From Cetobacterium sp. NK01 (GTDB lineage: Bacteria; Fusobacteriota; Fusobacteriia; Fusobacteriales; Fusobacteriaceae), in contig NZ_JANIBO010000004.1 of NCBI RefSeq assembly GCF_024506395.1, positions 1 through 64,000 on the forward strand: a DNA stretch of 64,000 nt. Reading direction: 5' to 3'. The notes beneath the pieces are model-generated. The model did no database searches and had not been told where the DNA came from. It saw nothing but the letters and a program-made list of their open reading frames with translations. The position numbers were made by a program, and so were the translations under genes. Every line of letters begins with the position of its first letter. The first letter of the stretch is position 1. Below, piece after piece: positions 29,383 to 64,000 of this stretch.

Positions 29383-29681
29383 TAGAAAGTAGAAAAGGAT
29401 TTAGTCTTTAATTTTAAAGTAGTAAAATAGCCATCACACAGTTTCAAAGATGTTTTAATTTTTAAAAAATGAAGAAAAATAGTATTTTAATTAATTTTAA
29501 CAAATCATGAAGTTGTTTTTCTAACTATTATATGAGGTAATAGATTTAAAGTCAGTAAACTGTTTTACTTTTAAGAGATTTAAAAAGTTTTTTAAGAAAA
29601 TGATTGAAAGTTTTAAAGTTATTAGAAGGTGATTTAGTAGTGAAGTAGAGGGATTTGTGATGGTTGCCCTCTACTTTTTTT
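29383..29681 (+). ncRNA. Candidate ~300-nt structured noncoding RNA
   Basis: A promoter (29347-29376) and a strong terminator (AAGTAGAGGG at 29643 pairing with CCCTCTACTT, then seven Ts) bracket ~300 bases with no usable ORF. A long-range pairing is visible between 29406-29432 (TTTAATTTTAAAGTAGTAAAA) and 29555-29582 (GTTTTACTTTTAAGAGATTTAAA), which encloses ~130 nt. A long closing helix with an open middle would fit a 6S-like or other regulatory RNA, but I cannot assign a family. It is equally possible that it is an untranslated relic. Confidence 0.4.
29643..29681 (+). terminator. Terminator of the candidate noncoding RNA
   Basis: A 10-bp stem, AAGTAGAGGG with CCCTCTACTT, with a T-run on the plus strand only. 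No plus-strand gene ends within 330 bases upstream. Confidence 0.75.
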
Positions 29682-29736
29682 ATTCATCATTTAAAAGCTT
29701 ACTTAAAATTAATTATTATAAAATTTAATCGAAACT

Positions 29737-61423: not shown

Positions 61424-61461
61424 TAAAAAAAACACGATTTTTAACTAATCGTGTTTTTTTA
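61424..61461. terminator. Bidirectional terminator
   Basis: AAAAAAACACGATT pairs with AATCGTGTTTTTTT, between hutI and the converging PTS gene. Confidence 0.85.
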
Positions 61462-61472
61462 TATTTAAATTT

Positions 61473-62957
61473 TTAATTTTTTAAAAGATTTTTTATATCT
61501 CCAGCAATAAATTGAGCTTTTGCTCCAAATATAACTTGAACTCCATATTTTCCTACTTTTATAGTTCCACTTGAACCTAACTTTTTAAAACCTGCTTCAT
61601 CTACTAATGAGGTATCTTTTACCTCTACTCTTAATCTTGTTATACAATAATCAATAGAGGTAATATTTTCATTTCCACCTAAATAATTTATAGCCATTGC
61701 AGCAATCTCTTTATCTGTAAAATTATCATTTTGGTTTTCTGAGTCGTTTATAACTTCTCTACCAGGTGTTTTTAAGTCAAACTTTCTTATTAGAAATCTA
61801 AATCCAAAATAATAACACATAGCCATAACAGTTCCAAAAACAAGAACCATTATATAATTTGTTTCATATCCTGAAAATGATGGCAATATTCCAAATGATA
61901 AGAAATCAATAAATCCTGCAGAGAATGACTTTGCTATATGCACATTTAATAAATACATCATCATATAAGATATTCCCGCAAAAATAGCATTAAAAAGATA
62001 AAGTACCGGTGCTACAAATATAAATGTAAATTCAATTGGTTCTGTTATTCCAGTTAAAAAACAAGTAAATGCTGCTGATAATAATATCCCTGCAACTAAT
62101 TTTTTATTCTTAGGAAGAGCTTCATGATACATCGCTAAACCTGCAGCTGGTAAAGCCATTAACATTAATGGATACTCTCCTTGTAAAAATTTTCCTGCAT
62201 TTTTATAACTTTCTGATGAAAAACTTTTTATTCCTTCCTCAAACATTTTAAACCAAATAGCTTGATCTCCATTAATAATATTTCCAGACTGTGTGGTATA
62301 TTCACCAAAGTTGAACCAATAAGGAGAATAAAAATATGATGTAATCCAGTAGGAATTAGTGCTCTTTCAGTAAATCCAAAGATAAAAGTTGATAATGCTT
62401 GATTTTCTCCATTTGCTAATTTAGATAGTAATCCAATCGTATTTTGAATTGGTTCCCAAACAAACGGAAACCCTAAACCTATTAGAAAAGCAAAAAGTGC
62501 TGTAATAATTGGCACAAATCTTTTCCTGAAAAAATCCTAAAAAATCAGGTAGTTTTATATTGAAAAATTTATTATACATTGTTGCAGCTAATACTCCAGA
62601 TATAAGTCCACTAAATATACCACTTTGTAAAGTTGGAATCCCCATAACACTAGCATAAGCTCCACCTTGAGAAGCCATTTCCGGAGTTACACCTGCAACA
62701 ATTCCAGCAGTTGAATTTATTATTAATATAGCTACAATTGAAGCTAGTGCTGCTATTCCAGACTCTCCGGCTAATCCTACAGCTGCTCCAACAGCAAATA
62801 ATAATGGTAGATTATCAAATAATATTCCACCGGCATTAGTCATTAACGGAAGATTTAATCGATCGCCAAAAGCCAATAGTATCCCAGCAGCTGGTAAAAT
62901 AGAGATGGGTAGCATCAATGCTTTTCCTATCTTTTGTAAATTAGAAAATATTTTCAT
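61473..62957 (-). pseudogene. PTS glucose/N-acetylglucosamine-type EIICB with two single-base indels
   Basis: A sugar phosphotransferase permease of ~495 codons split by frame changes. Frame 1 (62957-~62520) gives [26 protein letters not shown] through LPDFLGFF. The middle (~62520-62340) lies in another frame ([43 protein letters not shown]). The end (from ~62335) returns to frame 1 (YSPYWFNFGEYT by conceptual repair, MFEEGIKSF, FLTGITEPIEF). The EIIB domain has the phosphocysteine in DYCITRLRVEV. One extra T in a T-run near 62530 and one missing T near 62340 explain both shifts. No EIIA domain. Either a true pseudogene or consensus errors. GGGAGG precedes ATG 62957. Confidence 0.8.
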
Positions 62958-63016
62958 TTCATTTTCCTCCCTTTTATTAAACAATAAGTTTTTTTAAAAT
63001 ACACTTTACATTCACA

Positions 63017-63045
63017 ATAGTATATAATTTATATATTTTTGTCAA
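63017..63045 (-). promoter_or_regulatory. Promoter of the PTS gene
   Basis: TTGACA, a 17-bp spacer and TACTAT on the minus strand, followed by ATTGTGAATGT, which resembles the operator on the other side of the divergon. Confidence 0.55.
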
Positions 63046-63073
63046 GTTTTTTCGAAATTAAATGAGCCATATA

Positions 63074-63123
63074 TTGACAATATTTTAAAATAATAGTATT
63101 GTAATACTATATAATACAATATT
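63074..63123 (+). promoter_or_regulatory. Promoter and palindrome of the HTH gene
   Basis: TTGACA at 63074-63079 with TATTGT 17 bases later, overlapped by an inverted repeat in which TATTGTA and TACAATA flank ATACTATATAA (63097-63123). The palindrome covers the start region, as expected for autoregulation. Confidence 0.5.
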
Positions 63124-63142
63124 TATTAATCTTTGGAGGTTT

Positions 63143-63484
63143 ATGAAAAGTAACAATAATATCAATAAACTTAAAATTATTAAAATGTTTTTAGAAAATA
63201 AAAAAACTTTAAAAGAAATATCATATGAAGAGAATATTCCATATAGTACTTTAAAAAGATGGATAAAAAAATTTAGAGATGATGGAACAGAAGCGCTAAA
63301 TTTAAAAGAACGAAGTGATAAAAATTCCTTCCGAAAAGTCGACAATACTTTACTTGTAACTATTAGGAATTTTTACTTAGAAAATAAAAATAATTCTTTA
63401 CAAACAATTTATAATGACCTAAAAAATAATTTTAACTCTAATATAAGCTTTAATACATTTTATACAAATGTTAAATTTAGATGA
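63143..63484 (+). CDS. HTH protein, transposase-OrfA-like
   Basis: A 113-aa protein that starts behind GGAGG. A helix-turn-helix domain of the transposase/terminase type is clear: KLKIIKMFLENKKTLKEISYEENIPYSTLKRWIKKFRDDG, followed by a second helical domain (SFRKVDNTLLVTIRNFYLENKNNSLQTIYNDLKNNF). It resembles the DNA-binding N-terminal part of Mu- or IS481-like transposases. The stop overlaps the next ORF in the -1 frame. It is divergent from the PTS gene, so it may have been recruited as a regulator. Confidence 0.6.
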   Translation: MKSNNNINKLKIIKMFLENKKTLKEISYEENIPYSTLKRWIKKFRDDGTEALNLKERSDKNSFRKVDNTLLVTIRNFYLENKNNSLQTIYNDLKNNFNSNISFNTFYTNVKFR

Positions 63485-64000
63485 ATATTTAAAAAACAAA
63501 TCTAGTACTGAAATTAATAAAAATATAAAAAATGGGGATGTGTATATTTTAAAATCCTTTATATCTTATAATTTCATTGAAATTAACAATACAAAAAAAT
63601 TACCTATTATTTTTCTAATTTTCAATGCTTCTGATTTAGATATAATTGATTTTCATATTGAATTTTCACTTACTAATTCCCAAAATATATTAGCTTTTTT
63701 AAGAGAAAGTATTATTCTAGGACTTCTTAAATACAACGTAACTTATTTACCAAAAGAAATTTTAAATGACTCTAGTTTTAAACTATCTAATAATATAAAA
63801 AAACAAATTAATGATTCTTTATCTTTAAAAATTCATGATTTTACCCATGAAAATAAAGAAATTGAGAGATTTATAAATTTTTTGAATAGTGACATTGAAA
63901 AAAATTTAAAGAATAATATTACATATGAAAATCTCTATGATTTTTTGAGTAACTATTTAAAGGTTAATAAAAATTTGCCTACATTTATAGAAACTGAAGA
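63478..64000 (+). CDS. Integrase-core-like protein, continues past window end
   Basis: An open frame from ATG 63478 (overlapping the HTH gene) to the window end, at least 174 codons. The stretch KKLPIIFLIFNASDLDIIDFHIEFS, NSQNILAFLRESIILGLLKYN, then VTYLPKEILNDSSFK follows the strand-helix order of an rve/DDE core (compare the PxxxVxIDxxSRxIVGYxxS and LPxxIxxDNG patterns). The first catalytic Asp is not at its expected place (ISYNFIEI), and DNG is ND-SS. The fold seems kept and catalysis lost. With the HTH ORF it may be one protein made by frameshift, or a broken one. Confidence 0.45.

Follow-up and report, generated by a model that had tools for sequence, protein, structure and literature searches.

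It is well known that, in eukaryotes, domesticated DDE transposases can serve as transcription factors. In bacteria, the transposon-derived regulator known to us is TldR, and the local control of glucose-type PTS genes is associated with regulators of the GlcT type and with Mlc/NagC, whose logic is that of a repressor released when the sugar is present. The TldR are reported to be RNA-guided transcription regulators derived from TnpB (PMC13418256). The gene family described in this work resembles them in that a transposon-encoded protein would have turned into a bacterial transcription regulator, but it would derive from a DDE transposase and use a DNA box, and no TnpB family is found among its Pfam matches. 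It would share with Mlc/NagC and GlcT-type regulators the local control of a glucose-type PTS gene; these are unrelated families, and none of them appeared among the families found for our proteins. The closest systems by sequence and fold are TnsB of Tn7-like and type V-K transposons, with an HTH, an RNase H-like core and a Mu-C barrel in the same order, and MuA of phage Mu, with a similar core fold and a Mu-transpos_C domain. Unlike TnsB (584 aa), the family has about 360 aa (400-430 in some genera), has not kept the catalytic triad, shows no terminal repeats in our searches, and has a fixed PTS neighbour. Unlike MuA, it has lost the triad and is not part of a phage: an intact member has no match in phage records, and MuA is not found in the PDB by the sequence profile of the family. 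We propose that these proteins are, very probably, domesticated and catalytically dead transposases of the TnsB type acting as predicted local transcription regulators of a glucose-type PTS.

The window, by which we mean the whole stretch of 64,000 nucleotides that was analysed, corresponds to C4:1-64000 in a genome of 3.1 Mb and 8 contigs. The features at its right end are the following (coordinates in the window, strand, description):

61473-62246, minus strand, C-terminal piece of the broken PTS IIBC gene (ORF)
62228-62515, minus strand, middle piece of the broken PTS IIBC gene (ORF)
62421-62984, minus strand, N-terminal piece of the broken PTS glucose-type IIBC gene (ORF; intact copy at L010:6366-7886)
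63019-63024, minus strand, predicted PTS -10 TATACT, 15 bp from the -35 (TACTAT at 17 bp), a consensus match only
63040-63045, minus strand, predicted PTS -35 TTGACA, overlapping the GTCAA half of the box, a consensus match only
63041-63068, plus strand, box GTCAA-N17-TGAGCC (GGCTCA-N17-TTGAC on the PTS strand), regulator binding site predicted from conservation
63074-63079, plus strand, predicted regulator -35 TTGACA, by eye, a consensus match only
63093-63110, no strand assigned, palindrome ATAGTATTGTAATACTAT, overlapping the regulator -10, judged not to be an operator
63097-63102, plus strand, predicted regulator -10 TATTGT, 17 bp from its -35, by eye, a consensus match only
63143-63484, plus strand, regulator piece 1, the HTH part (113-aa ORF), matching residues 1-107 of the intact protein on contig C3
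63468-64000, plus strand, regulator piece 2, the RNase H-like core and Mu-C barrel, matching residues 112-364 of the intact C3 protein

An earlier note on this DNA had described an HTH ORF and an overlapping ORF, divergent from a PTS IIBC gene, and this arrangement is real. The second ORF had been placed in the -1 frame of the first; the two are in frames 3 and 1, and since the offset is 325 (3 x 108 + 1) the second is in the +1 frame. Extending the sequence past position 64000, as the note had proposed, we found that this ORF, still open at the window end, continues to a stop at C4:64235 and has 255 aa. The HTH of the first ORF is significant (HTH_28, 1.9e-07; HTH_23, 2.2e-06), and the second ORF by itself has no family match (best E 0.064 in one search, none in another). 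The adjacent PTS gene is also broken, into three ORF pieces. On contig C3 of the same genome, a second copy is intact in both genes, with a regulator of 364 aa (L010:8045-9139) and a PTS gene of 506 aa (L010:6366-7886).

In the intact C3 protein, HTH_28 (1.9e-07) and Mu-transpos_C (1.5e-04, 22.1 bits vs a cut-off of 21.7) are both detected, and each of the 29 relatives used to build the family profile (alignment A1) matches both domains (E <= 0.01). Against the PDB, the profile retrieves TnsB of a type V-K CRISPR-associated transposon (E 2.6e-16), in a collinear alignment from the HTH to the barrel. The structure predicted for L106, a 50% identical relative, from a 17-sequence alignment (mean pLDDT 82.6, pTM 0.63) has TnsB as its top Foldseek match (7svw, E 2.4e-14), followed closely by MuA and IstA, and VIA-align gives nearly the same scores for TnsB (8aa5, Z 15.2 over 205 residues at 3.2 A) and MuA (1bco, Z 15.1 over 215 residues at 3.0 A). 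The succession of HTH, RNase H-like core and Mu-C barrel is that of TnsB and Mu-type transposases, as expected under descent from them. TnsB-like models match just part of the family well: among the three proteins scanned with PADLOC, the Ilyobacter-like L063 was assigned to TnsB (1.7e-18), the C3 protein to nothing, and L060 weakly to CARF (9.6e-4). Of the description as a "Mu/IS481-type transposase" given in the earlier note, the profile, the Mu-transpos_C domain and the fold uphold the Mu/TnsB part; membership in IS481 was rejected (NF033577, 38.9 bits for the C3 protein against a curated cut-off of 224). Membership in IS3 was rejected as well, the score being far below the cut-off.

The same note had remarked that the core lacks the expected acidic residues, and the family bears this out. 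At the sites of the TnsB catalytic triad, which we take to be D205, D287 and E321 (the letters in the profile alignment agree), the first Asp is present in 0/29 members, the second in 15/29, and the Glu in 5/29; the first site was placed by sequence alignment. The columns that are acidic in at least 85% of the members (residues 25, 29, 59 and 114, C3 numbering) all precede the core, and the 29-member alignment has no conserved acidic column within it. On this pattern the core is predicted to be catalytically dead. A search for TniB was non-discriminating as a test for an AAA+ partner because 92 of the 98 genomes and 13 of the 14 controls match, mostly through long AAA+ frames.

Carriers of the regulator make up 45 of the 98 Fusobacteriota genomes, namely 44 of the 61 genomes in the window's own family and one of another family (Haliovirga abyssi), with none among the 36 others. 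The vast majority of carriers (40/45) have a single locus; G000, G008, G016, G026 and G028 have two or three, and the locus of G006, split across two contigs, was counted as one. A scan of GTDB contigs gave 17 loci, the titles of which are all Fusobacteriaceae, Fusobacterium, Cetobacterium, Propionigenium, Ilyobacter or Psychrilyobacter. Values of dN/dS range from 0.03 to 0.15 in 13 of 15 pairs, with 0.37 for the accessory pair L010/L041 and one undefined pair; several dS exceed 1 and those ratios are therefore rough. The family appears to be under purifying selection, and we judge from the comparison of genomes that the regulator is a host gene. Four weak matches were dropped as chance: G000:C1:573433 falls in a nucleotidyl-transferase gene, and G008:C73:79284, G009:C1:1437852 and one in G017:C10 share one gene cluster.

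The linkage to PTS genes is conserved, as one would expect of a PTS regulator. If unannotated ORFs shorter than about 117 aa are passed over, a divergent PTS gene comes next upstream in all 52 loci having upstream sequence (a 53rd entry is a fragment without it). This gene is ptsG at 42 loci, crr at six, and ptsH and ptsI at two each. The distances between regulators correlate with those between ptsG genes (Mantel r 0.64, a value reached in none of 2000 permutations, with 45 of the 52 loci usable).

The divergent intergenic regions share a conserved element that went unnamed in the earlier note and lies at 63041-63068 in the window. Its family form is GTCAA-N16..19-TGAGCY, and it keeps a fixed place with respect to the PTS -35. 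Since the complement of GTCAA is TTGAC, the -35 itself, the order on the PTS strand is RGCTCA, 16-19 bases, TTGAC; the box coincides in part with the -35 hexamer, a sequence conserved in its own right. With spacings of 14-20 allowed, it is found exactly in 37/52 loci and with at most one mismatch in 49/52. At this latter stringency a Markov control (40 rounds of all 52) gave 0.175 on average and never more than 2; the sequences used for the count are those from which the pattern had been derived. Of these 49 loci, 46 have a spacing of 17 or 18. At up to one mismatch, the standard box is absent from three of the 52 loci (L042, L065 and L071); L065 has its TGAGCC displaced outward by ten bases. 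A further box of the same geometry occurs at the regulator's own -35 in L063.

The box also co-occurs with the protein at the scale of genomes. Its exact form has three matches in the source genome, which are the three regulator loci, against one for the reversed control, and across the phylum it lies 61-202 bp upstream of 38 of the 52 regulator matches, in the same orientation for 37 of the 38. A strict, A/T-aware form is present in 43/45 carriers (it was not found in G004 and G082) vs 6/53 non-carriers, and its reversed control has 3 matches in the 98 genomes. As a further control we took the full-length ptsG relatives with at least 54% identity that were, among the matches listed, in non-carriers (G015, G027, G036, G055, G092 and G094). 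These six regulator-less ptsG (54-60% identity, among the matches listed) have no box within 400 bp upstream; one TGAGCC upstream of such a gene lies in the neighbouring ORF, and in two of the six genomes a different regulator-like gene, SorC-like by eye, precedes ptsG. The box thus goes with the protein and not with ptsG, given both the genome counts and these six boxless genes among the matches listed.

There are 16 strict-box matches outside regulator loci, 10 in carriers and 6 in non-carriers, the latter all inside ORFs. We inspected 13 of them, that is, all except G078:C3:1496017 and those in G028:C79 and G016:C78; 12 are inside ORFs and were dropped as chance. The remaining one is intergenic (L175, in G016:C101, positions 1932-1960), between a sugar-binding-protein/ABC operon and a ROK-family gene. 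This operon is a possible second member of the regulon and, because one box precedes it, the regulator may have targets besides the PTS.

The palindrome ATAGTATTGTAATACTAT at 63093-63110, to which the earlier note had drawn attention, does exist. As an operator it was discarded: when the stretch was resampled 500 times under a Markov model, 16.4% of the samples held an equally good palindrome and, among six other loci, it recurs only in the near-identical L010 and L041, so that we do not regard it as a conserved signal. The similar sequence reported at the PTS promoter is also present, within the PTS -10 region; the conserved element is the other one, at 63041-63068.

The segment that carries the window copy is duplicated and takes in the PTS gene and two further genes. 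Its second copy, on C3, shows 97.5% identity across 2.8 kb and 94.8% across another 1.75 kb. The third regulator locus of the genome, the core one, is at C1:352578-353630 and is about 33% identical; the intact loci are those on C3 and C1. The source organism is a Cetobacterium: the C. somerae plasmid NZ_CP143321.1 matches window positions 61426-64000 over the full length at 97.6%, with neighbours resembling those on C3 and the gene annotated "helix-turn-helix domain-containing protein". On this plasmid (p2 of strain ceto; L188, 7719-8811), the regulator loses its frame at about residue 320, counted on the intact protein, a different place from the break in the window copy. Selection on the accessory copies may be relaxed.

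Several other genes were observed around these copies. Downstream in the duplicated segment there is a DUF4268 protein (L009 7493-8878, i.e., C4:64492-65877); the C3 copy adds a zeta-toxin-like protein, with a near-identical counterpart in a zeta-like ORF on C4. On C3, about 2.4 kb from the intact regulator, L010 11506-12303 encodes a class D beta-lactamase, above the cut-off of the general class D model and below the OXA-85-like model's own cut-off. Past the window end, ORFs at L009 10831-18080 (C4:67830-75079) resemble by eye a type I-B CRISPR-Cas operon. Finally, 99 bases of the window (29588-29686) are 93% identical to L010 14247-14151 on C3, on the opposite strand.

These copies bear on what kind of gene the window holds. 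The overlap of its two ORFs recalls IS3-type elements, which have overlapping ORFs, and the earlier note had suggested a programmed frameshift. Such a mechanism, fusing both ORFs into an active product, is extremely unlikely: the C3 copy reads in a single frame, as do 49 of the 52 family loci, which have a single ORF of at least 331 aa (the rest are two loci cut by contig ends and the window copy itself), the adjoining PTS gene is broken too, and the C. somerae plasmid copy breaks frame elsewhere. Because of the intact C3 copy and this differently placed break, we judge that the window copy is a decaying duplicate of the regulator and PTS pair rather than a frameshifting gene; an assembly error may also lie behind the frame breaks on C4. 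The transposase architecture and the duplication of the locus within the source genome could also be those of an ordinary insertion sequence or transposon that lies beside the PTS gene by chance. The earlier note had named what would reveal such an element, flanking inverted repeats with many identical copies. We looked for these and found neither: the genome has three loci, of which one has an identity of only about 33%, the two ends of the duplicated segment share just short matches at chance level, and 2.7 kb of the window contains just imperfect inverted repeats of 16-31 nt in AT-rich DNA. This search covered the ends of the duplicated segment and these 2.7 kb. Hence, the combination of terminal inverted repeats and several near-identical copies that would mark a mobile element was not observed and, with the triad absent, one locus in most carriers, a PTS neighbour at every locus, and the PTS gene plus two more genes inside the duplicated segment, we regard an ordinary transposon as very unlikely.

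A host gene of this kind could still be a passenger kept for another task, the box being another regulator's site or a promoter alone. The GTCAA half is indeed the -35, and A/T tracts near -45 might be an UP element. Yet TGAGCY stands in strict register where the regulator is present and is missing at all six regulator-less ptsG among the matches listed, and the contrast between carriers and non-carriers (43/45 vs 6/53) points the same way, which makes the passenger explanation improbable. Closer to our proposal, the same domesticated protein might be a repressor that sits over the PTS -35 and keeps the promoter off as long as sugar is absent. This has a substantial chance of being right, if somewhat short of even. 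The -35 lies within the box, the PTS hexamers are near consensus (TTGAC in most loci, and a -10 with 5 of 6 positions at 17 bp in 27/52, promoter calls made without a control), and the second box of L063 is placed as in negative autoregulation. On the other hand, the TGAGCY half is clear of the core promoter and keeps an activator-like distance to the -35, and in L065 it has moved outward by ten bases. Because of this near-fixed spacing and the shift in L065, we slightly favor activation, which would occur through contact with RNA polymerase, over repression.

The comparative evidence (the family, the loss of the triad, the synteny and the box) gives strong support to the idea, already in the earlier note, that a transposase whose core has degenerated was recruited to regulate the adjacent PTS. 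In our proposal, a TnsB/Mu-type DDE transposase would have been immobilised in an ancestor of the Fusobacteriaceae, would have lost its catalytic triad, and would have been retained as a transcription factor acting locally on the glucose-type PTS operon. The N-terminal HTH domains would recognise the GGCTCA box 16-19 bp (mostly 17 or 18) upstream of the PTS -35, and the bound protein would control the PTS promoter. We assign the reading of the box to the HTH part because it is the most conserved region of the protein (invariant K21, L23, Y34, T36-W40, G48, L52, R57 and D59). The RNase H-like core may serve as a dimerisation or sensing module. What the sequence comparisons establish is the family with its synteny, the box and its co-occurrence with the protein, the absence of the triad, and purifying selection; DNA binding by the regulator, the sign of regulation, any inducer and this role of the core are inferred.

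TnsB and MuA pair two transposon ends, and the regulator might, by analogy, pair two boxes. In many members of the Fusobacterium type (e.g., L044:4225-5352), the conserved IIEPF peptide, encoded close to the beginning of the regulator gene, is spelled ATA ATT GAG CCT TTT, which repeats the core of the box. The codon of its conserved Glu is GAG in 32/38 rows vs 3/35 to 16/32 in the six other well-conserved Glu columns passing the filter, in a count of related rows that are not independent and from which L009, L174, L047, L067 and L068 were excluded beforehand. A shuffle of synonymous codons gives p<=0.05 in just 16/52 loci, and the second site is absent in the window's own subfamily. We therefore hold it as a tentative and rather unlikely idea that an oligomer pairs the PTS -35 box with the IIEPF-codon box 107-164 bp away, in a transpososome-like manner, and that the resulting loop ties control of the PTS to autoregulation.

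The domestication of transposases into regulators is already known, and a TnsB-type case at a bacterial sugar PTS is apparently new within the open-licence literature: in the parts of it that were covered, we found no report of this family or of a TnsB-derived bacterial regulator. Since both its DNA site and its target are predicted and natural variants number in the dozens, the path from transposase to regulator becomes directly testable. Genes annotated merely as "helix-turn-helix domain-containing protein" may be such regulators. If our reading is true, the family would be a bacterial counterpart of the eukaryotic cases, one that arose from a transposase of the TnsB/Mu type and has been retained in a family of bacteria to serve a central metabolic function.
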